DNA of 37,941 bases from Deltaproteobacteria bacterium (GCA_020845895.1 JADLEX010000065.1:1-37941), one strand, 5' to 3'; positions 1,688 to 36,211 are shown, counted from the stretch's first letter. Notes: generated by a model not told the origin, from the sequence alone. A program made the numbers and translations.

Positions 1688-2974
1688 ATGAACGCGCCAT
1701 CGAATCGGGATCTCGACATCGACCTCGCCAAGGGGCTCGCATGCCTGATGATGATCTACGGGCACATCGGGTTTCAGATGAACGTCGTCATCGACCGACC
1801 GCCCCACCTCGTCCCGAGCTGGATCTTCGCGGAAAGCTCCGTCGCCCTGTTTTTCATGGCGACCGGAATGAACGTGCTGCATTACGTCCAGCGCGCCGCA
1901 TCGAAAAAAGGATTCGGTCCCACCCGCGACTTCCTCATCACCAACGTCGCGCTTTTCTTTTTGGGATTCGTTTACAACGTCAACCGATACTCCGTCGGCC
2001 TGATGGATCTTTTTCAGGGGATCGCGGTCGCGGCGTTCGTCACCTACATCCCGTTCCGCCGGCAATGGCCCACGTGGGCGATCGTCGTCATCGCGCTCGA
2101 ACTGTTCGTCATCGCATTCGGGTTCGCGCTCACGCCCGATCCGTCGATCGGGAACGGTTACATCGCCGTTTCGGCAAAGGCATTTGCCGATTCCATGCGG
2201 CCCGGCGCCGCGCACCCGAACCTCATGGGACAGTACCTCGCGATGCTCGGCGAGTTGAGGGACCTGCCGCTCTGGCAACGTTTTCTGTTCATCCAGTTTT
2301 CCGCGCTGCCGTGGACGGGCTGCGCCCTGCTCGGCGGCGTGCTGATGCGTCACGCGCGGACGAAACGCGAAATCTGGCTATGGATCTTCTTCGCGGCGAT
2401 TCTCGCCTCGTCGCTGGCGTTTCCGTTTTTCCTGGCGCAGCACATGGTGGATTACTTTCATCGCGGCAAACCTGACTACGTGCTGCGTCATGTGGGAATC
2501 GCGGGGTTGTTCATCCTGGCCGCCCGACGTTGGTACACGGGACAGTGGCGCGCCGGGCGCTGGCTCGAGTTTATCGGTCGGGAGTCGTTTTTCGTCTTCG
2601 TGCTCCAGTGGCTGTTTCTGGAAGTCTCCACGACCATCGTGAAGAGTCCTCCGTCGTTTGTGATGATCGTCGGTCAAACCGTGGTGGTGATGAGTCTCAT
2701 CACGTTGACGACAAAAAAGCTCGCCGCGCGCCGAGACCGGGGTGCGGACTCGATGGCCTTCGCCAAGCGCTGGTTCGCAATCGCGATCGGCGTCGGTTTC
2801 GCCGCGTGGTGGATCGGGCGCGTTCCCAAACCGCCGCTCTACCTCAACGTCCATCTGGCGCACCTGATCTCCAACATCTCGAGCATCGCGTTCGCGATGG
2901 CGTTCCCGTCACTCAAGACGCTGATGCGCGGATCGAAAAAACCCCGTGGCGTGCCCGAGGCCGCGCATGCCTGA
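1688..2974 (+). CDS. Multi-pass membrane acyltransferase-like protein, copy 2
   Basis: A 428-residue membrane protein, start ATG at 1688 with AGAGGG well placed upstream. It shares motif order with its upstream neighbour: DIDLAKGLAC then GH (Asp12, His26), FFxATGMNV against FFVASGMNV, a DLFQGIAV segment against DIFQGVAV, LPLWQRFLF against LPLWKRQLF, and a C-terminal FIGRESFFVFVLQ against FAGQESFLLLILH. The two are therefore tandem duplicates of one membrane acyltransferase-like family. It ends with a basic tail. Its last 8 bases overlap the next gene, so the three genes probably form one transcript. No acceptor can be named. Confidence 0.72.
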   Translation: MNAPSNRDLDIDLAKGLACLMMIYGHIGFQMNVVIDRPPHLVPSWIFAESSVALFFMATGMNVLHYVQRAASKKGFGPTRDFLITNVALFFLGFVYNVNRYSVGLMDLFQGIAVAAFVTYIPFRRQWPTWAIVVIALELFVIAFGFALTPDPSIGNGYIAVSAKAFADSMRPGAAHPNLMGQYLAMLGELRDLPLWQRFLFIQFSALPWTGCALLGGVLMRHARTKREIWLWIFFAAILASSLAFPFFLAQHMVDYFHRGKPDYVLRHVGIAGLFILAARRWYTGQWRAGRWLEFIGRESFFVFVLQWLFLEVSTTIVKSPPSFVMIVGQTVVVMSLITLTTKKLAARRDRGADSMAFAKRWFAIAIGVGFAAWWIGRVPKPPLYLNVHLAHLISNISSIAFAMAFPSLKTLMRGSKKPRGVPEAAHA

Positions 2975-4670
2975 ACGCGTACGGCCCTCGGATCGCCGCG
3001 TCTTCTCGTTCGCGCTGGCTGCGATCATCTGCGCCAAGTTTGTGCTCGTGTTCCTCGGGGCGGGCAATCCGCAGAACCCGCTCGATTTCCTGCGTCCGGT
3101 CGATGACGCGTACATCTCGTACCGATACGCCGAGAACCTCGCCCACGGATTCGGGCTCGAATACAACCCGGGCGAGCGCGTCGAGGGCGGAACGTCGATC
3201 GCGCTCATCGCCCTGCTCGCGCCGTTTTCGCTGGCCGGCATCCGCCGGATCGATTTCGTGGCGGTCGTGCTCAGCCTGCTGGCGAGCGCGGGGACGGTCA
3301 CGTTGGCCTCGCGCTACCTGCGCGAACGCACGACGGGGCTGATCGGCCGGGCCGAGGCATTCGTGCTCGCGTTCCTGACGCTCTCCACGTGCGTGCTCGT
3401 CTGGGCGTGGGCGGGTATGGAGACGTCGATCTTCGCCTTCGTGTGGCTGGCGGGCGTGCTGCGCCATTTACGCGAGTCGGAGCGCGAGGACTGGCCGTGG
3501 GCAAGCGCTTTGCTCACGGTCGCGGCCGGCCTGCTGCACCCCGATGGCGTTTTACTCGCGCCGATCCTCGGCCTGTCCTGGCTGTTTCCGTTCACGAAGA
3601 CGCGGGCGGTGCGCGGCGTGGTTTACGGCGCGATCGTGGTGGCGCTGTTTGGCGGATACTGGCTCGCGCGTTGGACCTACTTCGGCTACCCGATGCCCAA
3701 CACATTCTACGCCAAAGTCGGCTCGGGAGCGGATCTGTTCCGCGCGGGATTCACCTACATTCGCGTCGCGGTGTTTTCGACGCTCGTCCCCCTCGCCACC
3801 GCGTTTTACGCACTCAAGACCATTAAGGGTTGGCGTTCGTGGCCGCGCGAGGTCTGGATCTTCCTGGGCGCGGCGACCATCTACGTGCTCTACGTAATGA
3901 AGGTCGGCGGCGACTTCTACCCCTTCCACCGGTTCTTCCTCGCGGCGCTCGTGCTCCTGACGCTCGCCGGGTGGCGGCTGCGCGGAATCTCGGGAAAAAC
4001 GTCCGGCGGTCCCGCAAGTCGGAAAGCGTGGGCGCTCGTCGTTCTCGCCATCGCGGCCATGAATGTCTGGTCGTATTTCTACACGTTCCAGGGGCTCATC
4101 CATCGCGATCTGCAGCGCGTCGTGAAGAATTTCGCGGCGACCGGCGTCGCGATGCGCGATTCGATGCCCGAAAACACCACGGTGGCGACGCTGCCCATCG
4201 GCGCGCTCGGCTTTTTCTCGAAGCTGCGCATCCACGACATGATGGGGCTTGTCGATCTGCACATCGCGCGACTGCCGCGCGACGCCACGCGCGGCGTGGT
4301 GGGCCACGAGAAGTTCGACCACGCCTACACGCTCTCGAAACGACCCGAGGCCATCGTCGTGCTGCCGAGCCTGTACACCGACGACAACGCCGGCTACGAA
4401 AAGTGGCTCAATGAGAACGCGCTCGCGCCGTCGCAGTACCGCATCTACGAGCAGAGTGCGCTTCGCGAAGAGTATCGCCTCGCGAAGCTGCCCGTGCGAA
4501 AGAAGCTGGTGGCGTATGGATTCCTGCGCAAAGAGCTCGTCGGCACGCCGGACTACGACAAATGGACTGCCATGAGCGACGCCGACAACGACCTGGCGTT
4601 CGCGACTCCGTCGCGCGCCGCGGCCCATCCGCTGCACGGCAAGTCGTTCGGCATCTGGACCTTCAAGTAG
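2967..4670 (+). CDS. GT-C type integral membrane glycosyltransferase
   Basis: A 567-residue polytopic membrane protein. The first loop has VDDAYISYRYAENLAHGFGL, then YNPGERVEGGTS (about residues 45-76), the signature of a large family of GT-C glycosyltransferases that use polyprenyl-phosphate sugars, including AftB-like arabinofuranosyltransferases. The Asp-Asp pair (46-47) is the expected catalytic/metal site. A later VGGDFYPFHRFF matches the conserved GGDF..RF loop of the same family. A soluble C-terminal domain follows the last membrane helix. The ATG at 2967 (GAGG upstream) is preferred over the GTG at 2946 because it overlaps the previous gene by only 8 bases. It ends 15 bases before the convergent giant gene. 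The transferred sugar cannot be told. Confidence 0.75.
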   Translation: MPERVRPSDRRVFSFALAAIICAKFVLVFLGAGNPQNPLDFLRPVDDAYISYRYAENLAHGFGLEYNPGERVEGGTSIALIALLAPFSLAGIRRIDFVAVVLSLLASAGTVTLASRYLRERTTGLIGRAEAFVLAFLTLSTCVLVWAWAGMETSIFAFVWLAGVLRHLRESEREDWPWASALLTVAAGLLHPDGVLLAPILGLSWLFPFTKTRAVRGVVYGAIVVALFGGYWLARWTYFGYPMPNTFYAKVGSGADLFRAGFTYIRVAVFSTLVPLATAFYALKTIKGWRSWPREVWIFLGAATIYVLYVMKVGGDFYPFHRFFLAALVLLTLAGWRLRGISGKTSGGPASRKAWALVVLAIAAMNVWSYFYTFQGLIHRDLQRVVKNFAATGVAMRDSMPENTTVATLPIGALGFFSKLRIHDMMGLVDLHIARLPRDATRGVVGHEKFDHAYTLSKRPEAIVVLPSLYTDDNAGYEKWLNENALAPSQYRIYEQSALREEYRLAKLPVRKKLVAYGFLRKELVGTPDYDKWTAMSDADNDLAFATPSRAAAHPLHGKSFGIWTFK

Positions 4671-4685: not shown

Positions 4686-7600
4686 TCATCGTTTGTAGAT
4701 CTGCGAGAGCGTCTGCTTTGCGCCGATCACCGCCTCGTGCTCCGGCGGAAACTTCGCGATGAGTCGCTCGAGCAGTCGAACCGCCTGCGACTGGTCGCCG
4801 TTGTCCTTGAGCAGCATCGCAGCCGACGACAACGCCCATGCGGTGTCCTGACGGTCCGGCCACGTATCGAAGACGGTCTGGTACTCCTTCACCGCCGACG
4901 AAACCATCTTTCGCTGCGCATAATGGCTCGCGAGTCCCATGTGCGCGTTGATGAGGTCCTGATCCTTTGCGGCCTTGGCGGACAGGATCGCGCGGAACAC
5001 CGACTCCACGTCGCCCGCGGGTTCCTGTTGCCGGATCTGGGCGAGGTCGAATAGCGCGACGACCGACTGCGGCGCGTCGGGGAATTTCTTGGCGATCTCG
5101 AGCAGGATATCCGCGGCCGCCTCGTCGTCCCCACGCGCCAGTTCGTTGTGCGCCTGCCCGATCCGGGCCTGCAGGATCGTATTCCGATCCGCGTCCGGCG
5201 CGTCCTCGATCGCCTGAAACGCCGTCCTCGCCTCGTCGTAACGGCCGAGCCCGGACAGGCTCTGCCCCTTGGTGAAGTGCGCCCAGCGACGCCGTTCGGG
5301 ATCCTTCGTCTGTGCAAGTAGCGTTTCCAGCGACGCAAGAGCTTCATCCCATTGCTGCCGCTCGCGGTGTTTTTCGATCTTCTGCTGAAGAACGTTGTCG
5401 GCCGCGTTCCGATCGCCCGGGAAGCGTTCGCGCAGCAGCGCAAGATGCTCCTCGAAGCCGCGGATGTCGCCCGTCTCCAGATCGGACGCGATGGCCGCCT
5501 GAATCGCCTCGCTCGCGGACGGGTCCTTCGGCATCACGTTCGCCGCGGACAAAAACGCCGCGCGCGCCTTGGCCTCCTCTCCGGACGAACGCAGCAGGTG
5601 GCCGAGTCCGATCAGCGCGCGGGCGCGGGCGATCGGGGCGGCCTGCGCATCGTCGATCACCGCCTGATAGATGGCGCGCGCGTCCTCCGGCTTCTTCTTC
5701 TCGATGAACGCCTGCGCCAGCATGTTGCGAACGTGCGCGCGGTCCGAGTCGTTCTTCGCCTCCTTGAGCGCGGTCTGATACTGCGCGATGGCGTCGTCGA
5801 TCTTCCCGGATCGCTTCGCGACGTCGGCGAGCCCGAAACGCGCGTTCATCCGCGCGCTTTCCTGCGCCGTGGGACTCGCCAGCATCTGCTCGAAATACTT
5901 GCGGGCAGTCGCGAGATCGTTTTCGTTCAGGGCGATCTGGGCGAGACTCTGCGTCGCCCAGAGCGCGGTCAGCGAGCGCGGGGCGAGTTCGACCGCGCGG
6001 CGGTATGCCGCCTGTGCGTCCTTGGGACGATTCGACTGCTGAAAGATCCCGCCGAGCTCGGTCGAAAGACGAGCCTTTTCCGCGGCGTCGGTTTCCGCGG
6101 CGATCAGCTTGTCGAAGGCGTCCTTGGCCGCCGCGACGTCGCCCATCTCCGCCAAAATCTGCGCAACGGACGTCTCGGACTGGCGGCGAGTCTCGGGCGA
6201 TTTCGAGTCCTTCGCGAGCTTGCGGAAGAGGGCGAGGGAGTCGTCCAGCGCGCGCATTTTTCGCAGCGACTGCGCCAGTTCCCATGTCGCCTCTTCCCGC
6301 ATCACGGCGTCCGCCGAATTCGACTCCGAGACGGCGCGAAAGATCTTCGCGGCCTCTTCCGGCCGGTTCGCGTCCTGATGCAGCCTTGCGATGGCGACAT
6401 CGACCCGCAGGCTTTTTGCCGGGTCCGTGGTCGCCTTTTTCAATTCCTCCAGAGTGGCGAGCGCCTCATCCGTTCGACCCGCCTGTTTCAGCGCGTTCGA
6501 CAGTCCGTAATGCGCCTGCTCCGCCGAGGCCGCGCCGTCCGCGCGGGCGAGGAGATCGCGATACAGCTTGACCGCGTCGTCGAACCGATTTTGTTCGGCG
6601 TAGCACTGGGCCGCGGAACCGAGCGCCCACTCGCGCGACTCGGCGGTCGTCCCCTTCTCGGCAATGGCCAGAAACGCCGCGACCGCTTCATCGAATCGTC
6701 GCGCCTGACGCAGGGTTTCGGCCCGCCCGGCGGTCGCCTGATCGCGCAGACTCTGCTCGAGCCCGGAGTTTTTGAGCAGATCGTCGTAACTCCGAAGCGC
6801 ATCGTCGAAGCGATTGTTCTGCCGATGCAATTGCGCGAGTTGAAACGCCACGTTCGCTTTACGGCCGGGCTCGTTCGCCGACTCGACCACACCGCCCAGC
6901 AGTTTGGCCGCCTCGTCCGCGCGGCCCGTCGCAGACATCAACTGAGCGAGGGCGGTCTTGACGTCGGACTGATACGCGAAGTCGCCCGGAAACCGTTTCC
7001 CCATCTCCGTCAGGAGCTTTTCCGCTTCAGCGGTCCGATCGGCTTGGACGTAGGCCTGCACGATCTGCTGAACCACCTGAAACTGCGCGTTCGCCGGCAA
7101 CGCGAGGTCGAGATTCTTCCTCCACGCCGCCACCGCATCGTCGATACGTCCCGCGCGACCGGCGATCTGCGCGAGCCCGGAGTTCGCCGCCGCCAACGCA
7201 TCCGGCCGGTTCGCGAAATCCTTGCCGATCTCGCCCGCGAGTTGCGCAACCGCCGCCGCATCGCCCGCGTCCACGGCCAACGAGATGAGTTCCGTCAGCG
7301 CATTGAGCCGCGACTCGGGCGATTTCGCGGCCTTTGCCGCCTTCTCATAAGCCGCGACGGCGTCCGCGCGACGGTCCTCGCTTTTCAGCGTCCACGCGAT
7401 TCCCATTCGGGCCTGATCGGATGCCACTTCGTCATCGGAATAGTCCTTGGCGATCGCCTCGAAGGCTCGACGGGCTTTCTCCCATTCCCGCGCGTTGGAA
7501 TACGCCTGCGCGAGCGCAATCAGCGCCTGCTTGCGCAACGCGGGGAGCTCGGATTCCGCCGTCAACGGCTCGAGCGCCCGGACCGCCAAATCCAGCTTGC

Positions 7601-10600
7601 CGGTTCTCGCGAGCGATTCCCCGAGCACAAGCGACATCGCATCCGCCGTTCCCTGCGATCCGGGACCTTTCGCGCGGACCTCGGCAATCATGGTCGTCGC
7701 GGCATCGAGCTGCCCCTGCGCGACCATCACTCGCACCAGCGCGGTTCTCGCGCCCGACGACGTGCCGTCGTCCGTGGGCGTCGCGATGAGCGTCTCATAG
7801 TGCTTGCGGGCGCCGGCGAGGTCCCCCTTTCGTTCGAGCAACTGGCCGAGCGAAAAACGCGCCTGCGCCACCTCCACGATGCGACCGTCCCCTGCGTATT
7901 TCCCGATCAGCGATTCGTACGCATTGATCGCCGCGTCGGGACTGGCACCGCGGTCGTGGAACCCGGCAAGAGCGAGCATCAACTGCGCCTGCTCCCGAGG
8001 CTCCTTTTCCTGGGCGGACGCGGCCTCCAGCATCGACAGCGCCTCGGGGAACCTTCCCGAATCGGCGATTGCGTTCGCGAGCTTTTGAATCAGTTGCGCC
8101 CGCCCACCGACCTCGGTCGTTGGAATCGCGATCGCGCGATCGTATGCCGCGCGGACCGCGTCGAGATTTCCCCGCTGTGCCTCGATATCCATGATGCGCG
8201 AATACGCCTGACGAGCCGACGCGGGCGGCGCCGATTCCACGATCGCGCGAAACTCGGCGAGTGCCGCGTCGAAATCCCGGGCACGCGCCAGGCTCTCCGC
8301 CTTGGCCAACCGAACGACCGACAGATCGTCGGTGCGCGTCGGGAAACGATCCGCGAGGGTCTTCGCCACGACATCGAGATCGGCGATCCGGCCCTGATCG
8401 GCGTAGAGCATCTGCAGAGAACGCAGCGCGCCAAGCGCGACGTCCGCCTGCGGATTTTTCGCGACGTCGTTCCAGATGGCCTCCGCGCCGGCCACGTCGC
8501 CGGTCAGCCGGAGGTATTCCGCTTCTTCCGAACGCGTCCGCGCCGCGAGGACGGGATCCCCCACGTAACGCTTCGCCATCAGCTCGATCTGCTTCTTCCA
8601 TTCCGTCAGGTTGCGCGATTGGCGATAGACGTTGACGATGTTCAGGTCGGGGTTGAAGTTGAGATTCAGGTCCGTCGTGAGTTCGGAGACACGACGATAC
8701 TGCGCAACCGCCTCGTTCGCGTCGCCAAGTTCCCATGCGATATCGCCCAGGGTCTGTCGAATGGTCGACTGCATGTGAGGCGATTCTTCGGAATCGGCGA
8801 GGACTTCGTTGAGGAGCTCACGCGCCTTTTCGTGCTCGCCGCGATTCCGATAGACGCCAGCCAGCATGATGGCCGCGTTATTGCGCGCTCCCGCATCCTT
8901 CAGCGTTTCGCGAAGTCCTTCGAGAATCTTCGCGGCTTCGTCCAGACGGCGGGCCGCGAGAAGCACCGTCACACGGTCGATGGTGAGCCGCTGGGCCTGC
9001 TCGTCAACGGACTTCACGCGTTCCAGCGCCCCATCCAGAACCTTGAGCGCGTCGTCAAACCTGCCGATTTGCGTGAGCACCGCGGAGAGCGAGGATGCGA
9101 CACCCGCGATCTGCACCGGCTCCTTCGCGCTTTCGAGCAGACGCTCGTACCGGGCGACGGCGAGCTCCGGCGTGCCTCGATTTTTTTCGCCGTCGGCGAT
9201 GGCGTTCTCCGCGGCGAGAATCAGTTCGGTCTGGTCTGCGTAACGCTCCTTGACCAGCGCGAGCTTCGCCTGCGCGCCCTCGAGATCGCCCATGCTGACG
9301 AAGACCTCGATCTGCTGCGAGAGCACCTGCGCCGCGCGCTGAGGAATGTCGACGTTTTGCGCGAGAACCTCATCCAGCCGCGCGATGGCCTTGGGTCCCT
9401 GGCCGTGTTCTTTCCACAGTCGCGCGACACTGAGATTGGCGTTGAAAATCGCGTCGCTCGAAAACTGTCGCGAGCCGACGATCTTCATGTAGGCCGCTTC
9501 GGCGGCTTCGACGTCCCCACGCAGGACCTCGATCTGGGCGATCCGTTCCCAGGCGCGCGACGACTCCGGATACGCGTTCCACCGCTCGGCGAACGACGCA
9601 AACGCCGCGACGGACTTTTCGTATCGCCGTTCCTGAGCGAGGGCGTCGGCGAGACCGAGTTCCGCGGAAAACAGGCTGGCCTTGAGCTCCGGCCGGTCGG
9701 TCGTGCCCGCGACCACGAGATCGAAGTACCGGCGCGCATCGTCGATTTTGTTCTGCCCCAGGTACAGGTTGGCGAGCTGCACCCGGATATTGGCGACGCG
9801 AAAGGGATCATCGGGATACTTGGCGAGGATCAGTTCGTAATGCCGGATGGCGCGCGGGACATCCTGCTTCGATACCGCGTCGCCGGCGGCCTGTTCGAGA
9901 CGAGTGTAGGACCAGTTCGCGGGATCCCGGTACCAAAGCCACCCGTACGCCAGTACCGAAGCCACGATGACGGCCACGGCCGCCTGCGCGAGACGGCTCG
10001 TGCGCAGCGTGCGGCCGACACGCAGCCACAATAGGCTGCTCGTCTTCGCGCCGCGCTCGCGGAATGCGATCAAGGCCGCTTCGTCGTATCCTTTGACGGA
10101 CTTGAGAATCGCACCTTTCAGCGCGGCGTCCGCGAACTCGACGGCCTCGTGGCGGCCTCCCGAAAACTGCGCGTGCGCCAGATTCGCGCCGCGAAAGTCA
10201 ACGCGTTCGAGACGCGTGCTCGACCAATTGCTCTTGATCAGCGTTCCGCCGGAGAAGTCGCAATCCCGAATCTGCGACAGGAAGAAGTCGATATCCGTCG
10301 CGTTCGCCGACTGAGCGTTTACGTCGGCGAGTTCCGCGTTGATCCAGATCGACCGTTCGAGATACGCACCCCCGAGCCGTGCCCCTTCCCACGTCGTCTC
10401 GACCAGATCCGCACCGGTGAAATCCGCTCCCGCGAAGTCGACATTCGCAAAACGGCTCTTCGACGCGAGCGCGTCGCGCCACGCGGACTTTTCGCCTCGC
10501 ACGTTTTCGAGTTTGGCCTCGCGCACCTTCGCGCCGACGAGCGTCGCTTCGTCCAGCGTTGCACCGGTCAGGTCCGCGCCGTCGAGATCGGCCTTCTCCA

Positions 10601-10841
10601 GCTTCGCCCCGCGCAGGTTTGCGCCGGTCAGGTTCGTTTGGCGCAAATCGGCTTTCGAAAGGTCCGCGCCCGACAGATCCGCGCCGGAAAAATTGGCCTT
10701 ACGGAATTTTCCCCGCGAGAGATTTACCCCCGCGAGACGCGCGCCGGACACGTCGGAGCCGGCCCAGTTCGACCGCGAGAGGTCCTGCCCGGCGAGATCT
10801 CCGGCGCGAACTTTTTCCAACAGATTCGGCTCGATCGTCAT
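4686..10841 (-). CDS. Giant pentapeptide-repeat / transmembrane / multi-TPR protein
   Basis: An uninterrupted 2,051-residue protein. Residues about 16-248 are pentapeptide repeats (A-D/N-L-x-x units such as ADLSGADLSKADLRQTNL), which form a right-handed quadrilateral beta-helix. Residues about 284-304 form a single transmembrane helix preceded by Arg/Lys-rich sequence (RTLRTSR), so the positive-inside rule puts the pentapeptide domain in the cytoplasm and the rest in the periplasm. From about 325 to the end there is an almost unbroken run of TPR-like helix pairs (units with W/Y at the helix start, A-x-x-x-Y, and P at the turn), some 45-50 repeats by length. No catalytic domain is seen. The start ATG at 10841 has only a weak ribosome site (GAAAG). 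Composition matches the neighbours. It is probably a membrane-anchored scaffold for envelope or glycan machinery; that role is inferred from architecture and neighbours only. Confidence 0.85.
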   Translation of the reverse strand: MTIEPNLLEKVRAGDLAGQDLSRSNWAGSDVSGARLAGVNLSRGKFRKANFSGADLSGADLSKADLRQTNLTGANLRGAKLEKADLDGADLTGATLDEATLVGAKVREAKLENVRGEKSAWRDALASKSRFANVDFAGADFTGADLVETTWEGARLGGAYLERSIWINAELADVNAQSANATDIDFFLSQIRDCDFSGGTLIKSNWSSTRLERVDFRGANLAHAQFSGGRHEAVEFADAALKGAILKSVKGYDEAALIAFRERGAKTSSLLWLRVGRTLRTSRLAQAAVAVIVASVLAYGWLWYRDPANWSYTRLEQAAGDAVSKQDVPRAIRHYELILAKYPDDPFRVANIRVQLANLYLGQNKIDDARRYFDLVVAGTTDRPELKASLFSAELGLADALAQERRYEKSVAAFASFAERWNAYPESSRAWERIAQIEVLRGDVEAAEAAYMKIVGSRQFSSDAIFNANLSVARLWKEHGQGPKAIARLDEVLAQNVDIPQRAAQVLSQQIEVFVSMGDLEGAQAKLALVKERYADQTELILAAENAIADGEKNRGTPELAVARYERLLESAKEPVQIAGVASSLSAVLTQIGRFDDALKVLDGALERVKSVDEQAQRLTIDRVTVLLAARRLDEAAKILEGLRETLKDAGARNNAAIMLAGVYRNRGEHEKARELLNEVLADSEESPHMQSTIRQTLGDIAWELGDANEAVAQYRRVSELTTDLNLNFNPDLNIVNVYRQSRNLTEWKKQIELMAKRYVGDPVLAARTRSEEAEYLRLTGDVAGAEAIWNDVAKNPQADVALGALRSLQMLYADQGRIADLDVVAKTLADRFPTRTDDLSVVRLAKAESLARARDFDAALAEFRAIVESAPPASARQAYSRIMDIEAQRGNLDAVRAAYDRAIAIPTTEVGGRAQLIQKLANAIADSGRFPEALSMLEAASAQEKEPREQAQLMLALAGFHDRGASPDAAINAYESLIGKYAGDGRIVEVAQARFSLGQLLERKGDLAGARKHYETLIATPTDDGTSSGARTALVRVMVAQGQLDAATTMIAEVRAKGPGSQGTADAMSLVLGESLARTGKLDLAVRALEPLTAESELPALRKQALIALAQAYSNAREWEKARRAFEAIAKDYSDDEVASDQARMGIAWTLKSEDRRADAVAAYEKAAKAAKSPESRLNALTELISLAVDAGDAAAVAQLAGEIGKDFANRPDALAAANSGLAQIAGRAGRIDDAVAAWRKNLDLALPANAQFQVVQQIVQAYVQADRTAEAEKLLTEMGKRFPGDFAYQSDVKTALAQLMSATGRADEAAKLLGGVVESANEPGRKANVAFQLAQLHRQNNRFDDALRSYDDLLKNSGLEQSLRDQATAGRAETLRQARRFDEAVAAFLAIAEKGTTAESREWALGSAAQCYAEQNRFDDAVKLYRDLLARADGAASAEQAHYGLSNALKQAGRTDEALATLEELKKATTDPAKSLRVDVAIARLHQDANRPEEAAKIFRAVSESNSADAVMREEATWELAQSLRKMRALDDSLALFRKLAKDSKSPETRRQSETSVAQILAEMGDVAAAKDAFDKLIAAETDAAEKARLSTELGGIFQQSNRPKDAQAAYRRAVELAPRSLTALWATQSLAQIALNENDLATARKYFEQMLASPTAQESARMNARFGLADVAKRSGKIDDAIAQYQTALKEAKNDSDRAHVRNMLAQAFIEKKKPEDARAIYQAVIDDAQAAPIARARALIGLGHLLRSSGEEAKARAAFLSAANVMPKDPSASEAIQAAIASDLETGDIRGFEEHLALLRERFPGDRNAADNVLQQKIEKHRERQQWDEALASLETLLAQTKDPERRRWAHFTKGQSLSGLGRYDEARTAFQAIEDAPDADRNTILQARIGQAHNELARGDDEAAADILLEIAKKFPDAPQSVVALFDLAQIRQQEPAGDVESVFRAILSAKAAKDQDLINAHMGLASHYAQRKMVSSAVKEYQTVFDTWPDRQDTAWALSSAAMLLKDNGDQSQAVRLLERLIAKFPPEHEAVIGAKQTLSQIYKR

Positions 10842-10941: not shown

Positions 10942-11808
10942 TCACCGTTGCCCGCTCTGACGCCACGCGACGAATCGGGTTCCCGGGTGGAGCGGGCGCA
11001 GCCGGATTGCCGAACTCCAATGCGCGGCCGCGGTATTCGTATCACCGATTCCTTCGAGGGCCTTGGCCGCGACCACATGCAGGCTCCACAGGCGGCGGGC
11101 CTCACGGCGATCGGGTTTCGCCCCCGCATCGCGTAAGTCCTCCTCCACCACCGTCGCGCAGGCCGGATACATGACGGCGGCGAGTCGGCCGGTCTGCGTT
11201 CCATGGAGATGATAGACGCTCAGCGGTTTGGGATCGAACGCGATCGGCCCCGCCGCCGCGAGCCGCATCCACAGGTCGTAGTCTTCCGCCGGTTCGAAGC
11301 GATGGCGAAAACCGCCGAGGCGAGCGACGACCTCGCGGCGTGCCAGCACCGACGACGTCGGGATCACGTTGTCCGCCCGGAGCCGCTCCCGAATCGATCC
11401 CGCGAACGGGGGTTGACGGCTGAAGATCGTCTCCCCGCGCGCCCGGTCGCCGGCAACCTTCGCGTCCGAATAAACGGCCACGAGATCGGGGTTTGCGTCA
11501 ATCAGGCGCAACTGGCGTTCCAGGCGATCCGGCGCCCATTCATCGTCGTCGTCGAGAAACGCGAGCCACTCGCCGCCCGCCGCATCGATCGCCGCATTGC
11601 GAGCGAGAGCCGCTCCGGCTCCATTGTGGGTGATGATGCGAACGCGGTTCCGCCAGTGATCGGCGATCGAAGCGACCGATTCGCGCTCCGACTCGTGACA
11701 CGAAACGAGGGCTTCGTCGGCGGGTCGGTTCTGGGAAAACACGCTCGCCAGCGCGCGGCGCAGCATGTCGGGCCGGTTTCGGGTCGGAATGACGGCGCTA
11801 ACCCGCAT
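10942..11808 (-). CDS. Family 2 glycosyltransferase
   Basis: A 288-residue GT-A fold enzyme. The N-terminus (VSAVIPTRNRPDMLRRAL) and the DDDDEW motif at residues 86-90, which includes the DxD-type nucleotide-sugar/metal site, are typical of GT2 inverting glycosyltransferases. A later EDYDLWMRLA is the family's conserved acidic ED...W region. A C-terminal extension of about 80 residues has no clear motif. It has no membrane helix, so it should work at the cytoplasmic face. Its ATG overlaps the end of the upstream amidotransferase gene by 11 bases, so the two are translationally coupled. The donor and acceptor sugars are unknown. Confidence 0.88.
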   Translation of the reverse strand: MRVSAVIPTRNRPDMLRRALASVFSQNRPADEALVSCHESERESVASIADHWRNRVRIITHNGAGAALARNAAIDAAGGEWLAFLDDDDEWAPDRLERQLRLIDANPDLVAVYSDAKVAGDRARGETIFSRQPPFAGSIRERLRADNVIPTSSVLARREVVARLGGFRHRFEPAEDYDLWMRLAAAGPIAFDPKPLSVYHLHGTQTGRLAAVMYPACATVVEEDLRDAGAKPDRREARRLWSLHVVAAKALEGIGDTNTAAAHWSSAIRLRPLHPGTRFVAWRQSGQR

Positions 11809-13531
11809 CGCGGCGATGATCGGGAAAGTAGTTCCGGAACCACAATTCCAGACTCACGCGACTGTACCGACCTCGATCGAATTCTCCCCGCGGGCTGCCG
11901 TTGCCCGGCATTTCGATCCGCGCGGCGAGCGACGATTCGAGATCGCTCGCCCATTCGTCGAGGGGCCCGAAGAGCCAATCGTGAAACGGAACGACCAGCC
12001 CCTTCTTGTCGCGACGATCGAGAATCGCATCGGGCACGATTCCGCGAAGAGCTTTTCGCAAGATCCTCTTGGTGCCGTTTTCGTCGATCTTGCATCGCTC
12101 GGGCAGACGGAATCCGAATTCGATCAGCCGGTGATCGAGAAAGGGGCAGCGGTTTTCGAGCCCGACCGCGGCACAGGCGCGATCGTTCATGGTGAGGAGC
12201 GACGGCAGCGAAACATGGGCATCGAAATTGCCCATGCGGTCCACGAGCGGGGTATGCCGCGCGAACATTCGGCGTACGAGTTCGAAATGGGGGTCGGGGT
12301 GTTCGGGGCGATAACGGGCGACCAGTTCGAAATACCGATGGGCCGGGTCGCCGAACATGCGCGGATTCCAGAAGTACCTCGCGAGCGACTGGTACGAAGA
12401 CAGCTCCTCGCTGCGCGCGAGTCGGTCTTCCCACGCCATCAGCAGATAGCGAACGTACCCGCCGAAAACCTCGTCCGCGCCCTGTCCGCCGAGGATCACC
12501 TTGACTCCTTGGTCTCGCGCCGCCTCGGCCAGCATGAACTCCGCGATCACGGATGCCGTGGCGACCGGCTGGTCGAGATGGCGGATCACAGCCGGCAATT
12601 TGTCGCGAAAATCCCCGGCCGTCGGGCTGACAACCACTTGTCGCGCACCGATGTGTTTTGCGACGAGCTCGGCGTACGCAAATTCGTCGAACTTGGACCC
12701 GAGCGGAAATCGGCAGGTGAAGGCGATATCCGGCTTCGCGATGCACGCGATGGCGGCCGAGTCGATGCCTCCCGAAAGGAATATTCCGAGATCGACATCG
12801 GACATAAGGCGGATGGCGACCGCGTCCACGAGCAACGCACGCAATTCCTCGACGAGATCGCTTTCCGATCGCGTGGATGATTCGCCGTTCGGAATTTCCC
12901 AATATCGCCCGATCACCACATCGCGGCCGTCGAAACTCAGCGTATGAGCGGGCGGAAGTTCCTCGATGCCCTCGAACAGCGTATCCGGCGCGAGCGCCGT
13001 GTCCCAAACCCAGTACGATTCGCCCACCCGGGGTCGAGTCGAAACATGCGGTAACAAACCCTTGATCTCGGACGCGAAGAAAAATCCCGCATCCGTCCGG
13101 GCCCAGTACAGCGGTTTTTCGCCCATGCGATCGCGTGCGAGAAAAAGCCGAAGTCCATCCCAGATCGCGAAGGCAAACTGGCCGTTGAGGCGGTCGACGA
13201 CGCGCTCGCCCCACTCCTCGTAACCGTGGACGAGAACCTCGGTGTCGGTCCGCGTCGTGAAAACGTGCCCTTTTGCCGCGAGTTCGTCGCGAAGCGACCG
13301 GTAGTTGAAAATCTCGCCGTTGTAGACGACGTGTACGGTTCCGGTCTCGTTCGAGATCGGTTGGGATCCGGTCACCAGATCGATGATGGAGAGGCGACGG
13401 ATCGCAAGTTGAACCGGACGGTCACGCAACTCCCGCGCTTCGTCCGGGCCGCGATGCGCGATGGCGCGCGACATGGGATCGACATCGAGTGCCTCCCCGG
13501 GCCGCGTGTAGAACCCCGCGATGCCGCACAT
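11798..13531 (-). CDS. asnB: Asparagine synthase (glutamine-hydrolysing)-like amidotransferase
   Basis: A 577-residue protein with both AsnB domains. It begins MCGIAGF, so Cys2 becomes the N-terminal nucleophile of the class II glutamine amidotransferase; AHRGPD, YNGEIFNYRSLR and TDTEV follow as expected. The synthetase domain has the ATP-pyrophosphatase loop SGGIDS (253-258) and GGQGADEVFGGY (348-359). It would transfer glutamine nitrogen to an AMP-activated carboxylate. It sits between two GT2 genes. AsnB paralogues in exopolysaccharide clusters are common and are thought to amidate sugar acids or other glycan precursors, so this may not be the cell's asparagine enzyme. The upstream ribosome site is weak. 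The symbol marks the family, not a proven substrate. Confidence 0.88.
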   Translation of the reverse strand: MCGIAGFYTRPGEALDVDPMSRAIAHRGPDEARELRDRPVQLAIRRLSIIDLVTGSQPISNETGTVHVVYNGEIFNYRSLRDELAAKGHVFTTRTDTEVLVHGYEEWGERVVDRLNGQFAFAIWDGLRLFLARDRMGEKPLYWARTDAGFFFASEIKGLLPHVSTRPRVGESYWVWDTALAPDTLFEGIEELPPAHTLSFDGRDVVIGRYWEIPNGESSTRSESDLVEELRALLVDAVAIRLMSDVDLGIFLSGGIDSAAIACIAKPDIAFTCRFPLGSKFDEFAYAELVAKHIGARQVVVSPTAGDFRDKLPAVIRHLDQPVATASVIAEFMLAEAARDQGVKVILGGQGADEVFGGYVRYLLMAWEDRLARSEELSSYQSLARYFWNPRMFGDPAHRYFELVARYRPEHPDPHFELVRRMFARHTPLVDRMGNFDAHVSLPSLLTMNDRACAAVGLENRCPFLDHRLIEFGFRLPERCKIDENGTKRILRKALRGIVPDAILDRRDKKGLVVPFHDWLFGPLDEWASDLESSLAARIEMPGNGSPRGEFDRGRYSRVSLELWFRNYFPDHRRDAG

Positions 13532-13573: not shown

Positions 13574-14320
13574 CTATCGGCCCTTCCCGAGCGCCCGGCA
13601 CGCCGGACCGATGCGAAACTCCCACAGCGCGCGCGGAATATCCGCGAGCGCCGACACCGCGAAACGCACCGGAGCGTTGATGAAACTCACGCCGGCCGCA
13701 CGTTCGTCGAAGACCACGGGCACCTGCCGGATGCGATGTCCCCGCCGGTGCGCCGCGATCGCGATGAAGTGCTGAAAGTGACGGAACGGACGGGAAAAAT
13801 CGAGGACATCGGTCATGGCCGACCGCGTGTAAAGCACGAATCCGCTCTTGTTGTCGCGCAGACGCGTCCCGAACAGCAGATTCAGCAACGCGGACAGCCC
13901 GGACGTGAGCAGCACGCGCAGCCGGTCGCGCCCGACCTGGTCGCGCCGCCAGCCCTGCACGAACTCGACGTTTTCGTTGTCCATCACGTCGACAAGCGTC
14001 GGAATGTCCTCCGGGCGGTACTGCAGATCGGCGTCGATCGTCACGAGGCGCGGTGCGCCCGTGGCCAGCAGCCCCGACCGCCAGCTTTCGACGATTCCCC
14101 GGTTTTTCTCGTGGCGCACCGGTTTCACCCAGCGATGGGCAGCGGCCTGCTCGCCGATTTTCGCCCACGTGTCGTCGTGGCTGCCGTCGTCGACCAGAAC
14201 CAGCTCGAACGAAATGCCGCGCCCGGACAGCGCCTGCCCGACGCGCTCCGCGAGCGCGCCGACGTTCGGACCCTCGTTGAAACACGGCGCAATGACGGCG
14301 AGGTCGACGGGATCGGCCAA
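13574..14320 (-). CDS. Family 2 glycosyltransferase, dolichol/polyprenyl-phosphate sugar synthase-like
   Basis: A 248-residue GT2 enzyme with IAPCFNEGPNVGAL at the start, VLVDDGSHDDTW (43-61) and IDADLQYRPEDIP with the DAD motif at 96-98. This pattern is shared with DPM1-type polyprenyl-phosphate mannosyl/glucosyl transferases, which make lipid-linked sugars for GT-C enzymes such as the one at 2967-4670. No C-terminal membrane helices are present, unlike ArnC/GtrB types. The start is TTG at 14320, with AAGGA 9 bases upstream. It is the first gene of the minus-strand operon that continues with asnB (42-base gap) and another GT2. It is divergent from sfsA across a 230-base gap. Confidence 0.85.
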   Translation of the reverse strand: MADPVDLAVIAPCFNEGPNVGALAERVGQALSGRGISFELVLVDDGSHDDTWAKIGEQAAAHRWVKPVRHEKNRGIVESWRSGLLATGAPRLVTIDADLQYRPEDIPTLVDVMDNENVEFVQGWRRDQVGRDRLRVLLTSGLSALLNLLFGTRLRDNKSGFVLYTRSAMTDVLDFSRPFRHFQHFIAIAAHRRGHRIRQVPVVFDERAAGVSFINAPVRFAVSALADIPRALWEFRIGPACRALGKGR

Positions 14321-15266: not shown

Positions 15267-17135
15267 GTGACGAATCCGTGGAAAACACTCGGCTCTACCG
15301 CGTTGATGGCGCTGCTGCTCGCCGTCGCGGTCGTGCTGATGTACCCGGGCCTCGTTGATTTCGACCGTCGCGTCCCCGCGTCGGACGATGAGGCGGTCGT
15401 CGCCTGGCTCGACGCCTCGCTATTCGATCAGACGCTCCGGAGTTCGTGGCTTCGCGTCGGCGGTTTCCCTGCATATTACGCGGAGGTCGAGGGCGGACTC
15501 GCCGTCGGATCGCATCCCCGCGACGGCGCGGCGTCGCCCATCACGCTCGCGTTGCTGCGCCTCGACGCGATTGACGCGGTCAAGATCAAGACGCTTCTCG
15601 CGATCTGGGCGGGGGCAATGGGTGCGTATTTGATGGGCCGGCGGATGGGCGCGGGTCGCGCCGCGTCGTTCACGGCGGCCCTGCTGCTGCCCGCGTCGGG
15701 GTTCGTACGCGACGCGATCCACGCCGACCCCCTCTCCCTCCAAGCCCTGTTCGCCCTGCCCGCGCTACCAATCGTGCTCTACGCACCCGCGAACCCGGCG
15801 ACGATTCTGTTGTGTGCGCTCGCGGTGGTGCTGTCGTCGTTTCAGACCGGTTCGCTCGTCGCGTTCGCGCCGCTGGCGCTCGTTCTCGCGGGGCTCGCCC
15901 GCGCCCTGCGCGAGCCGGATCGACGCAGGACCGGAATCACCTTCGCGCTGCTCATCGCCGTTCACGCGCTGCTCATCGGCGCCATCCGCTGGCTGCCCGG
16001 CGTCGAGTTCTGGGACGCGCGGGAGATCGGTCACGCGATCCAGTCGATCACCGTTGCACCGGTGTCGCTCGCGATGCGCGCGTGGCGGTTGGCCGATGCC
16101 CTCGCCCCCGCCGGCGCCGTGTCGCTCGCCGCGATCCTGGCGCTTACGGCCCTCGGGTTCGCCAAGGACCGCGCGTCGAGATTCCTCATCGTGCTCGGCG
16201 CGGCGCTGCTCGCCTACGCCCTCGTCCCCGCCGCGGAACCCGGCGACACCATGGCTTCGCAAATCTGGTGGGTGATCCGCCCCTTCTCCAACCCGGCGTC
16301 GGCCGCGCCGATCTGGGCGCTCGCCATCCTCTCGGGCGTTTGCGCCATCGCGCTGCACGCGTTCTTCATCGCCACCCGGTCGCGGGCCGCGCACCTGGTG
16401 CCCATCGCCGCCGCCGCCGCGCTCGGCGCTTCGACCATGCACGCCGCACCGCCCCAGCGCGACGTTCCACTGCTTCGACCCGATCCGTTGCTCATCGGTC
16501 CGGTCCGGGAAGCGAAGCCGTTCTTCACGGTCCGTACCCGATTCTTCACCAATGAACTCGACCGGCCGATCGATCTGCACCCGACGCTGATCGTCGAAGA
16601 CGGGCTCGCGGCCCGCAACGCGGTCGAACCGTTCCGCGGACAGCGCCGGACTTCGCATCGCGTTCATGTGCAGGCCGGGCAATTCAAGCTCCGACGCAAC
16701 TCGCAGGATCGCGGCGAGGCATGGTTCCCCTATCGCAATGGCGATGTCCGTTCCGTCGTGGAGACGCCCGCCGGTCTGGAAATCCACGTGGTGACGCGAA
16801 AGGAACGCACCACCCTCGTCGTGAACCGCAACTTCGACGACGACTGGTCGGTGCTCATTGAATCCGCCGAAACACCGCCCCCGCCGGAACCGGAGATCCC
16901 CGAGGAGATCTTCGAACAACCGCCGGAGAGCGTGCCTCCGCTCGCGCTGCCCGAGCCTCGCGTTTTCCCCACGCGGGGTCTCGTCTCGACGCGCCTCGAC
17001 CACGCGGGCGAACAGGTCGTGACGCTGACCTATGCCGGCAGCATGTGGCGCTACGGGATGGGACTTTCGTGCGTGTCGTTGGTGCTGGCGTTGGCGTCCG
17101 CCGTCGGGTTTCTCGCACGCCGGGAGGATGCCTGA
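15267..17135 (+). CDS. Polytopic membrane protein, YfhO-like
   Basis: A protein of about 622 residues with an N-terminal signal-anchor, roughly ten membrane helices up to residue about 410, and a large extracytoplasmic C-terminal domain closed by a last helix and RREDA. The C-terminal part (VVNRNFDDDWSV, later TRLDHAGEQVVTLTYAGS, then a membrane helix) resembles the end of YfhO-type GT-C proteins, where a YPGW-like motif precedes a beta-rich domain. A proline- and glutamate-rich insert lies near residue 545. GTG 15267 has AGAGGG four bases upstream; a GTG at 15246 overlapping the sfsA stop is the alternative start. Its role may be glycosylation of lipids or polymers, but the usual YfhO N-terminal catalytic motif is not obvious. 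Confidence 0.65.
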   Translation: MTNPWKTLGSTALMALLLAVAVVLMYPGLVDFDRRVPASDDEAVVAWLDASLFDQTLRSSWLRVGGFPAYYAEVEGGLAVGSHPRDGAASPITLALLRLDAIDAVKIKTLLAIWAGAMGAYLMGRRMGAGRAASFTAALLLPASGFVRDAIHADPLSLQALFALPALPIVLYAPANPATILLCALAVVLSSFQTGSLVAFAPLALVLAGLARALREPDRRRTGITFALLIAVHALLIGAIRWLPGVEFWDAREIGHAIQSITVAPVSLAMRAWRLADALAPAGAVSLAAILALTALGFAKDRASRFLIVLGAALLAYALVPAAEPGDTMASQIWWVIRPFSNPASAAPIWALAILSGVCAIALHAFFIATRSRAAHLVPIAAAAALGASTMHAAPPQRDVPLLRPDPLLIGPVREAKPFFTVRTRFFTNELDRPIDLHPTLIVEDGLAARNAVEPFRGQRRTSHRVHVQAGQFKLRRNSQDRGEAWFPYRNGDVRSVVETPAGLEIHVVTRKERTTLVVNRNFDDDWSVLIESAETPPPPEPEIPEEIFEQPPESVPPLALPEPRVFPTRGLVSTRLDHAGEQVVTLTYAGSMWRYGMGLSCVSLVLALASAVGFLARREDA

Positions 17136-26170: not shown

Positions 26171-27667
26171 TTGGCTGCCGAGAAAAACTTCGCCCTTGAA
26201 CGCTATTTGCAGATCATCTGGTATCGCAAATGGCTGCTCGTGGTGCCGATCGTCACGATGGTGCTCGTCACGGGCGTCGGCAGCCTGTTTCTGACGAATA
26301 TCTACCGCTCGTACACCCTGATCCTCGTCGAGCCGCAGCAGGTGCCGCAGGAGTTCGTGACGTCCTCCGTCAGCATGTCGGTGGAAAAGCACATGAACAC
26401 CATCCGGCAGCAGCTTCTGTCGCGGTCGATCCTCGAACGCGTCATCAACGAATACAAGCTCTACCCCGATCTGGTCGCGCGCAACGTGCCGATGGAAGAG
26501 ATCCTCGAACTGATGCGCGCGAACATCGAGCTGCGCGTCGAGGGCAAGGACGCGTTCACGCTCTATTTCCAGGGTCCCGATCCGCACTTGGTCATGCAGG
26601 TGACCAACAAAATGGCGAGCCTGTTCATCGACAGCACCATGGCGACCCGCGAGCAGCAGGCGGGGGAGACCGTCGATTTCCTCGAAACGCAGGGCAAGGA
26701 ACTCAAGGCGACCCTCGACAATCTCGACCAGCAGATCCGCGCCTTCAAGCAGCAGCACATCGGCGAATTGCCCGAGCAGATGGAAGCCAACCTGCGCACG
26801 ATCGAACGGCTCCAGATGCAATTGCAGGTGAACTCCGATTCGCTGCGCAGCGCGCAGGACCGCCGCACGCTCATCTCGGCCCAGCTCGCCGAAATGCGCC
26901 AGAAGAGCGTGATCTCCGGCAAGGGTGGAGAGGTCGTCGGGGCGGATGTGCAGCTCGAGCAGCTTCGTGCCGAGCTCGCCAATCTCCAGCTTAAGTACAC
27001 CGACGAGCATCCCGACGTCATCAAGCTCAAGAGCCGCATCGCCACCCTGGAGAGGCGGCTCTCTGAACCGGTCGAGGACGGCGGCGGCGGCGCGGTCACC
27101 AGCAGCCTCGAAATGAGCCTGCGCGGCGCGGATCTCGAAATCCAGCGCGTCGGCGCGGAGCGCGCGAGCCTGCAGGGTCAGGTGGCGCTCTACCAAAAGC
27201 GCGTCGAGGGCGCGCCGCAGGTCGAGCAGGATCTGCAGGTGCTGACCCGCGATTACGAAAACACGCAGACCGCCTATCAGGACATTCAGAAGAAGCTCAC
27301 CGAGGCCAAGCGCTCAGCCGACATGGAGTCGAAGCAGAAGGGCCAGCAGTTCCGGGTCATCGACCCGGCCCAGCAGCCCAAAACTCCCTACAAGCCCAAC
27401 CGACTGTACATCGCCATCGTCGGGTTCGCCCTCGGCACGCTGATCGGCATGGGCGCGGTGTTTCTGGCCGAGCATTTCGACGACAGCTTCAAGGACCCCG
27501 AGGAGATGGAGGACGCGCTGGGCATGACCGTGCTCACGGCGGTCCCTCTCATCGACACGCAGGAGGACCTCGAGCGCCGGGCGCGGACGATGCAGGCGGC
27601 GATTGTCGTCGGCATCGTGCTGGCGGCGGGCCTCGTCGTCGTCGCGGTCGTGAAGTTCATCGTTTAG
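26171..27667 (+). CDS. Wzz/GNVR-type polysaccharide chain length determinant, XrtA/PEP-CTERM-locus type
   Basis: A 498-residue inner-membrane co-polymerase. A first membrane helix (about 21-42) leads into a Wzz domain containing VEPQQVPQEFVTSSVS, close to the family of chain-length determinants linked to exosortase (PEP-CTERM) loci. Long coiled coils (about 155-380) follow, then a PxxP-type segment (QPKTPYKPNR), a second helix (about 405-427), and unusually a third C-terminal helix (about 474-496). No tyrosine-kinase domain is fused. The start is TTG at 26171 with AAAGGAAC seven bases upstream. A putative extended -10 (TGTTAGGAT, 26054-26062) lies upstream in a 234-base gap. No exosortase or Wzx/Wzy gene is visible in the window. 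Confidence 0.85.
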   Translation: MAAEKNFALERYLQIIWYRKWLLVVPIVTMVLVTGVGSLFLTNIYRSYTLILVEPQQVPQEFVTSSVSMSVEKHMNTIRQQLLSRSILERVINEYKLYPDLVARNVPMEEILELMRANIELRVEGKDAFTLYFQGPDPHLVMQVTNKMASLFIDSTMATREQQAGETVDFLETQGKELKATLDNLDQQIRAFKQQHIGELPEQMEANLRTIERLQMQLQVNSDSLRSAQDRRTLISAQLAEMRQKSVISGKGGEVVGADVQLEQLRAELANLQLKYTDEHPDVIKLKSRIATLERRLSEPVEDGGGGAVTSSLEMSLRGADLEIQRVGAERASLQGQVALYQKRVEGAPQVEQDLQVLTRDYENTQTAYQDIQKKLTEAKRSADMESKQKGQQFRVIDPAQQPKTPYKPNRLYIAIVGFALGTLIGMGAVFLAEHFDDSFKDPEEMEDALGMTVLTAVPLIDTQEDLERRARTMQAAIVVGIVLAAGLVVVAVVKFIV

Positions 27668-29198: not shown

Positions 29199-30656
29199 TC
29201 AGTTTGTCCCGGTATCTCCGGCATCGCCGCCGGATGAATCCTTCGAATCGTCCTTCTTTTCCTCGGATTCGCCCTGCTCGTCCTCGGGCGGCGGGACATC
29301 CTGCACGTCGCCGAAATCCACCATCACCGGGTTGATGAGACTTCCGATCTCGCCATCGTCGCCCTCCGGCGGCGCGGGTGTTGGTGACGGGGTCGGTTCC
29401 GCCGCGGGAGCGTCCGTCGGCGCGGACGAGGCGTCGACCGGGGGCGTTTCGGCGGGCGCGGGATCGGGCACGAGACCTTCCATCAGATGGACGTTCTCGG
29501 GATTCGTCCCCGCCGCGGGTGCGGCTGGGCCTGCAGGCGCCCCGGGGGCCGCGGCCGGTGCTTCGGGCTCCTTCGGCGCTTTTTCCGGCTTGCTCAGGAA
29601 CACGCGGATGTCCTGAATCAGATCGGCCCGGTCCTCGCCCTCCGCGTATTGGAGCGGCGTGCGTCCGTGGATGTCCGAGAGCCCCGGGTTCGCACCGGCC
29701 TGCATGAGCAGTTCCACCGCGCGCACGTTGCGATGGTTCGTGAAGAAATGCAGGGCGGTCATGCTGGTGTCGATCGTCTGTTTGTTGGGGTCGGCGCCCG
29801 CCGCCAGCAGGAGTCTCGCGGTGGCCCGGTCGTTGCGGAACGCCGCTAGCAGCAGCGGCGTCATGCCGGTCTTGCTGTTCACCGCGTTCACGTCCGCCCC
29901 GGCCTCGATGAGCGGCACCACCGAAGCGATCTGCGTCTTGTCGGTCGCGACGTGTAGCGGCGAGGTGCCGTCGAGGGCGGGAGAATTCGGGTCCGCGCCC
30001 GCCGCGATCAGCGCCTTGATGGCCGCGTCCTTGCCCGACGCCGCCGCGCGATGGATCGGCAGGAAGCCGGCCTTGTCGGGGATTTTCAGATCGGCTCCGG
30101 CCTTCAGGAGAATGCCGATCACGTCCGCCCGTCCCTCCGCGGCGGCCATGCAGATCGGCGTTTCGCCCGTGCTGTCTTGTTTGTTCACGTCGGGAGTGTA
30201 GAGCAACAGGATCTCGACGAGGTTCGGGACGCCTTTTTCGGCGGCGTAGTGCAGGACCGTGTGGCCCTCGTTGTCGGCGAGGTTCACGTCCGCGCCCCCT
30301 TGCAGCAGGGCTTGGAGCGCGCCGCCGCGCCCGTGCCGCGCGGCCAGCATCAGTGCCGTGTAGCCGTGGTCGCGGTCGGGCAGGTTCACGCTCGCCTTGG
30401 CCTGCACCAGAAACATCACGCAGTTCGTGTAACCCCAGCGAGCCGACAGGTGCAGGGCGGATTGGCCCTCGTCATTCAGTTCATCGATGTTCTTGAAGTC
30501 CTTCTTGCGCAGAAGGTCGGCGAGCAGCGTCACGTCGCCGCGCTCGGCGGCACTGTGGATCGTCACGCGCTGGTTGTAGTCCCACTGGGCGGCCGCCGGA
30601 CCGCCGAGCATCGCCGCGGCAAACACCGCGATCAGCCATAACAAAATCTTTCGCAT
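29199..30656 (-). CDS. Exported ankyrin-repeat protein with Pro/Ala- and acid-rich tail
   Basis: A 485-residue protein. A signal peptide (MRKILLWLIAVFAAAMLGGP, cleavage near AAA-Q at 23) is followed by about ten ankyrin repeats from residue 28 to 355; units such as GxTPLxxAAxxGxxxxVxxLLxAGADxN are clear (TPICMAAAEGRADVIGILL, SPLHVATDK, TPLLLAAFRND). Residues 356-485 form a low-complexity tail rich in Pro, Ala, Glu and Asp with no membrane anchor. The protein should be periplasmic or secreted and act through protein binding. The ribosome site of the ATG at 30656 is poor. It is divergent from the ATPase/TPR module (83-base gap), so shared regulation is possible but not shown. Confidence 0.87.
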   Translation of the reverse strand: MRKILLWLIAVFAAAMLGGPAAAQWDYNQRVTIHSAAERGDVTLLADLLRKKDFKNIDELNDEGQSALHLSARWGYTNCVMFLVQAKASVNLPDRDHGYTALMLAARHGRGGALQALLQGGADVNLADNEGHTVLHYAAEKGVPNLVEILLLYTPDVNKQDSTGETPICMAAAEGRADVIGILLKAGADLKIPDKAGFLPIHRAAASGKDAAIKALIAAGADPNSPALDGTSPLHVATDKTQIASVVPLIEAGADVNAVNSKTGMTPLLLAAFRNDRATARLLLAAGADPNKQTIDTSMTALHFFTNHRNVRAVELLMQAGANPGLSDIHGRTPLQYAEGEDRADLIQDIRVFLSKPEKAPKEPEAPAAAPGAPAGPAAPAAGTNPENVHLMEGLVPDPAPAETPPVDASSAPTDAPAAEPTPSPTPAPPEGDDGEIGSLINPVMVDFGDVQDVPPPEDEQGESEEKKDDSKDSSGGDAGDTGTN

Positions 30657-36094: not shown

Positions 36095-36182
36095 GTTCGT
36101 CCGATCTGGGTGGTGAAGCGACGCGGCAACCGGAAACGGCCGCCAAACGGCGCGCGCCCGTGTTTCGCGTTCGTGGCGCGCC

Positions 36183-36211
36183 TTTGTACGAAACGCCGCG
36201 CGAGGGGTCAA
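36183..36211 (-). promoter_or_regulatory. gyrA promoter
   Basis: On the minus strand TTGACC (36211-36206) and TACAAA (36188-36183) are exactly 17 bases apart. The leader would be about 80 bases. The region between this and the FadL gene is divergent and GC-rich. Confidence 0.6.

Follow-up and report, generated by a model that had tools for sequence, protein, structure and literature searches.

The 37,941-nt stretch of DNA analyzed here (the window) encodes one very large protein, which we call Long, that joins pentapeptide repeats, a membrane helix and a long array of TPRs in a single chain, and the question this locus raises is what such a chain might do in the envelope. It is an open question how envelope-crossing machines set or gauge the spacing of the two membranes, and Long bears on it.

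Long is the product of one intact gene

Positions 4686–10841 form one intact ORF on the minus strand, with its ATG at 10841 and its stop codon at 4686–4688, and the codon-position GC of its 2,051 codons (0.69/0.46/0.80) is coding-like. Below, G000 denotes the source genome of the window, and G000–G006 the seven genomes of its phylum, all of which carry an orthologue. We ruled out Long being an artefact or fused ORF, given the intact orthologues of ~2,050 aa in G001, G003, G004 and G005, and likewise rejected the idea that the gene is a pseudogene. A scan of the region for promoters and terminators gave no more matches than were found in shuffled sequences.

Reading from its N-terminus, the 2,051-aa chain comprises a pentapeptide-repeat β-helix that is predicted to be cytosolic (residues 15–250; 10092–10799), a basic juxtamembrane linker with a GY.E...ERGA motif conserved in five orthologues (residues 251–282; 9996–10091), a single transmembrane (TM) helix predicted to be N-in/C-out by the positive-inside rule (residues 283–305; 9927–9995), an array of ~46 TPR-like α-hairpins with a period of ~37.4 aa (residues 312–2035; 4737–9908), and a C-terminal helix whose 16 residues form a peak of conservation in the TPR part (residues 2036–2051; 4689–4736). 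A preliminary description of this DNA had proposed a single 2,051-residue protein of pentapeptide repeats, one membrane helix and 45–50 TPRs. Both the single chain and this layout held up by Pfam, hydrophobicity and AlphaFold; we add the strand, which had not been given, and the TPR superhelix that was put at nearly 1,700 residues measures ~1,740 aa.

The TPR array is a regular solenoid

Beyond the N-terminal domain, Pfam matched the rest of Long to TPRs (PF13432, E = 8.2e-61), and a profile built from the family placed 38 TPRs in register at a spacing of ~37.5 residues, with the gaps between them falling at multiples of the period. AlphaFold models were obtained for residues 1–700 (aligned with one homologue) and 1201–2051 (single sequence), with mean pLDDT values of 87.1 and 82.5, respectively; pTM was ~0.5, and the models therefore do not fix the global shape of Long. 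The modeled hairpins recur every 37.6 residues over residues 312–699 and every 37.4 ± 0.6 residues over 1213–2036, which would make a total of ~46 hairpins and one terminal helix, the exact count being extrapolated by register across residues 701–1200, outside the models. Hairpins run to the last residue of the model, the C-terminus having no further domain, and this all-helical end leaves no C-terminal barrel of the BcsC/PelB/PgaA type.

By profile matches and hairpins Long falls within the TPR superfamily, with a repeat of 37–38 aa rather than 34, and it scored below the thresholds of several named families: the XrtA/PEP-CTERM TPR protein PrsT (TIGR02917; 155.7 bits vs. 312.2), PorW/SprE of type IX secretion (NF052312; 200.8 bits summed over repeats vs. 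250), LapB (PRK11788; 81.3 bits vs. 363) and full-length CpoB (PRK10803; 75 bits vs. 383, Long having 2,051 aa vs. ~260 aa). The YbgF/CpoB cut-off (TIGR02795; 90.1) was exceeded at 188.8 bits, but this score adds up matches from six stretches along the array. A viral structure library yielded only generic pentapeptide and TPR matches to Long.

Long and a shorter paralogue mark one uncultured phylum

The host phylum, FEN-1099 (Ca. Lernaellota), is uncultured and diderm, and the window is assigned to it by way of G006, which falls into the same class; this GTDB phylum is also named Ca. Lernaellota or Podoxiota (PMC13248872, PMC11382960). All seven genomes encode both Long and a paralogue that is built alike but shorter, at ~970–1,000 aa (1,288 in G000). 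The long and short forms separate as clades with support of 100/99, which most likely places the duplication before the known members of the phylum diverged.

Using a profile of the pentapeptide-TM-TPR architecture, we found that members from the phylum scored down to E = 1.3e-50, while the best match in 379 other genomes was 7.8e-40, with the matches listed covering the pentapeptide part only, and none reached 1e-42 in 291 and 77 further genomes from two pentapeptide-rich phyla. Among the pentapeptide ORFs of other phyla (loci L042–L062), one had a single TPR match and none had an array. The architecture had been called unusual at the outset, and this view survives the search for homologues: it is confined to the phylum among the ~740 genomes sampled (a slightly overlapping set, not all bacteria), and we found no publication on it. 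As a pair, Long and its short paralogue are a protein signature of the phylum.

The length of the array is nearly constant

In the five orthologues that are intact, the part of Long following the TM helix measures 1,749, 1,746, 1,757, 1,749 and 1,744 aa, and it is on these five that length constancy rests, since the assemblies interrupt the gene in G002 by frame breaks and in G006 by a split between contigs. Pairs of TPR parts at 21–30% identity differed by 4–16 gaps that together spanned 6–31 residues, with none above 6. As a control, a TM-less giant TPR family of ~2,700 aa from the same phylum, compared by the same procedure at 29–33% identity, showed 43–52 gaps spanning 167–579 residues, the largest single block having 95 residues and many blocks being repeat-sized, although one low-identity family makes this a thin comparison. 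The outer part of the short paralogue is also steady, at 691–702 aa in six of the seven genomes; the copy in G000 (L028:6023-9889, G000:C60) has one extra block of 295 residues, corresponding to ~8 repeats or roughly one superhelical turn.

Conservation in Long peaks in the pentapeptide and juxtamembrane region and again at the extreme C-terminus, where the last 16 residues have a pair identity of 0.57 compared with 0.26 on average for the TPR part (second among its 1,727 windows). Conserved ends on either side of a variable, length-constant middle are, judging by sequence, what one would expect of a spacer joining two docking sites, though the conserved C-terminal residues may be only a solenoid cap, which is the simpler reading of that peak.

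The strongest competing explanation is that the fixed length is a mere folding constraint of a tightly packed solenoid, so that Long would be a scaffold of arbitrary length and no ruler. Scarce indels may indeed reflect folding, as a regular 37.4-residue period may tolerate them poorly, and a giant TPR protein with a barrel-like C-terminus (outer-membrane) is also fairly constant in length. The thinness of the control leaves further room for this explanation, but that control family, whose repeats are similar, does gain and lose blocks of repeat size, and the 295 residues taken up by the G000 short paralogue mean that such arrays can change by whole repeats; we regard a pure folding constraint as a plausible minority position. 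The control family, a third giant TPR protein of the phylum that has neither a TM helix nor a signal peptide, is encoded at L089:4096-12171 (G000:C57) and has relatives in G003, G004 and G005.

Glycan genes flank Long in some genomes

Long had been described as lying between glycan genes, and we found such genes on both sides of it. Upstream on the same (minus) strand are a family 2 glycosyltransferase (GT2) directly adjacent to Long (10942–11808, with a start that may be at 11766; PF00535, 9.9e-26), which occupies the same place in G001, G002 and G003; an AsnB-like glutamine amidotransferase/Asn synthase present in all seven genomes (11798–13531; PF00733, 1.1e-76; TIGR01536 above cut-off); and a second GT2 (13574–14320; PF00535, 6.1e-20) with a weak likeness to polyprenyl-phosphate sugar transferases, its best NCBIfam match being below cut-off. 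Convergent to Long on the plus strand is a ten-TM protein (2967–4670) that weakly resembles GT-C arabinofuranosyltransferases (AftB-like NF041481, 8e-5, far below cut-off) and is possibly a GT-C type glycosyltransferase; a neighbor of Long in G001 is 54% identical to it. An Acyltransferase_3 family membrane protein (1688–2974, plus strand; PF01757, 2.2e-9) has a related gene at 436–1671, and a tRNA-Thr (CGT) at 240–313 on the minus strand overlaps the long upstream form of this ORF (106–1671), which therefore probably starts near 436.

Comparing neighborhoods across the phylum gave a divided answer. The GT2-AsnB-GT2 block lies directly upstream of Long, in the same order, in G000, G001, G002 and G003, which represent two families, but it is only loosely associated in G004 from a third family (~5 kb away on the other strand), and in G005 and G006 it is found elsewhere in the genome, unlinked to Long. 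The link to glycan genes is therefore not obligatory; given the conserved upstream position in two families it is more than nearness alone, and as far as gene order indicates it is likely, but not general across the phylum. Other neighbors include an SGNH-type hydrolase gene after Long in G004 and G006 and beside the broken copy in G002. The short paralogue in G003 follows a closely packed, single-strand series (L031:3452-12646, G003:C34) of GT2, B12-radical-SAM, radical-SAM/SPASM, GT2, radical-SAM and GT2 genes, and in other genomes (e.g., families f1 and f3) it sits beside unrelated genes.

Long could instead be a general envelope hub, as LbcA or XrtA-type TPR proteins are, gathering many clients along its TPR groove with the glycan genes incidental. 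LbcA gave the highest query-normalized TM-score (0.37) among the Foldseek matches listed, and the unlinked block in G005 and G006 and the unrelated contexts of the short paralogues in f1 and f3 would suit such a role. The array is, however, variable in its middle and conserved at its ends, and the GT2-AsnB-GT2 adjacency is kept across two families and loosely in the third, which makes this hub rather unlikely in our estimation. LbcA resembles Long as an envelope TPR superhelix and structural match, whereas it is a lipoprotein adaptor of the protease CtpA with 523 residues in the solved chain and neither a TM helix nor a pentapeptide domain.

Several further features were recorded. The window encodes a chain-length determinant ~15 kb from Long (26171–27667, plus strand) that passes the NCBIfam cut-off of the XrtA-system model TIGR03007 (296 bits), a protein of 609 aa that has nine predicted TM segments and matches no Pfam family (15306–17135, plus strand), and a 485-aa protein consisting largely of ankyrin repeats (29199–30656, minus strand). 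Elsewhere in G000, a second giant TPR protein (L083:4629-9998, G000:C31), with relatives in G001, G002, G005 and G006, has 1,760–1,790 aa, a signal peptide and a barrel-like C-terminus; it is preceded by genes for a DUF2334 protein, a membrane GT2 (74–85% identical between genomes) and a GH8 protein, and from its gene content the cluster looks like a synthase-dependent exopolysaccharide system.

Long as a candidate trans-envelope scaffold

Our preferred reading, to which we give roughly even chances, is that Long, anchored in the inner membrane, acts as a trans-envelope scaffold in which a fixed spacer separates two docking ends, and that it probably serves the assembly of surface glycans. On the inner face, partners would dock on the pentapeptide rod in the cytosol and on the basic juxtamembrane segment; the chain would cross the inner membrane once, and the ~46 TPR-like hairpins would form a periplasmic superhelical arm held at a fixed length, whose conserved last helix would dock distally to a second partner, which may lie at the outer membrane or be a periplasmic enzyme. 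We infer the extension of the superhelix, the docking and the glycan role; the linked GT2-AsnB-GT2 genes suggest that the organized process could be assembly or transfer of a surface glycan. An earlier proposal that Long organizes polymer assembly thereby gains glycan genes upstream in most genomes, while the organizing role itself stays conjectural.

Proteins of the TamB/YhdP/AsmA type have an N-terminal inner-membrane anchor and a very long periplasmic arm, the far end of which docks at the outer membrane. Long is like them in its inner-membrane anchor and long arm, and might similarly dock at the outer membrane, but its arm is a TPR-like α-solenoid and not a β groove, it lacks DUF490, and it has an extra cytosolic domain. 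The TPR scaffolds of exopolysaccharide export (PgaA, PelB, BcsC and AlgK) bind enzymes and polymer and have been proposed as hubs between inner- and outer-membrane parts (PMC9384988). They share with the predicted form of Long a periplasmic α-solenoid linked to glycan genes; they are, however, outer-membrane porins or lipoproteins with 8–19 repeats, whereas Long has an inner-membrane anchor, ~46 repeats (more than twice as many), no barrel and a cytosolic pentapeptide domain. The 9.5 repeats of AlgK rise 70 Å (PMC9384988), and were the rise the same in Long, 46 repeats would extend ~34 nm, which is an estimate only, as AlgK is Sel1-like and the period here is 37.4. Long would belong among the envelope TPR scaffolds, and what is new here is its length constancy, conserved ends and linkage to a glycan block.

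A bolder version of the scaffold, which we think unlikely, makes Long a phylum-specific ruler, in which the fixed 46-repeat arm would span the periplasm from the pentapeptide platform to an outer-membrane partner, couple cytosolic glycan enzymes to the surface and set or match the width of the envelope, with the short paralogue measuring a second distance. Since the repeat number is nearly invariant despite the drift in sequence, the most conserved parts lie at or near both ends, and a paralogue of different fixed length accompanies Long, a spacer or ruler function is directly testable via repeat number.

Topology of Long

Residues 284–302 are the only strongly hydrophobic 19-residue region of Long (KD 1.93; next best 1.31), and AlphaFold modeled a long helix at 283–305 with two short helices before it. 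The 25 residues preceding the TM helix contain seven positive and one negative charge, and the 25 following it three positive and four negative; the N-flank is the more positive in every homologue. This charge bias predicts the pentapeptide part on the inner side and the TPR part on the outer side of the inner membrane; the genome encodes Omp85 proteins and is hence diderm, in line with the cytosol-membrane-periplasm arrangement proposed earlier. Four C-terminal cysteines (C..CC..CW) are common to six of the seven short paralogues, two being missing together in G003, which is as expected of disulfides in the periplasm; VKOR was found in three of the seven genomes. The low cysteine content of the TPR part of Long was dropped as topology evidence, the TM-less giant TPR protein being about equally low.

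A reversed orientation, or a lack of translocation leaving the TPR arm cytosolic as in LapB-like proteins, appears improbable: translocation of a 1,746-residue arm is an assumption and TM hydrophobicity is only moderate across homologues (KD 1.46–2.6), but both the flanking charges in all homologues and the cysteine pattern of the short paralogues speak against it.

The pentapeptide domain and linker

The N-terminus of Long matched PF00805 (E = 3.6e-39), and 42 of its 47 pentad centers are hydrophobic, compared with a maximum of 25 in 2,000 shuffles. AlphaFold modeled residues 15–250 as a right-handed helix with one strand per five residues (pLDDT mostly 80–97), so that the domain has the pentapeptide-repeat fold, as originally suggested. 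The top Foldseek match to this fold was 3du1 (HetL); HetL and other soluble pentapeptide-repeat proteins have it in common with Long but are without a membrane anchor or TPR arm, and Long scored 98.4 bits against the 260 required for the HetL pentapeptide family (NF047416). That the domain mimics DNA as MfpA and Qnr do, tethering gyrase or the chromosome to the envelope, is very hard to credit, despite sequence matches to pentapeptide proteins including these two, since its net charge is near neutral rather than acidic in all long and short members (+1 to −9 over 165–240 residues) and GyrA is encoded at 33539–36211, 23 kb from the Long gene.

Within the linker, residues G251, E254, E262–A265, R274 and R277 are invariant in five orthologues, and the short paralogues align more loosely to the motif. 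In the G005 orthologue the pentapeptide part is degenerate and lacks 64 and 12 residues, which speaks against the scaffold.
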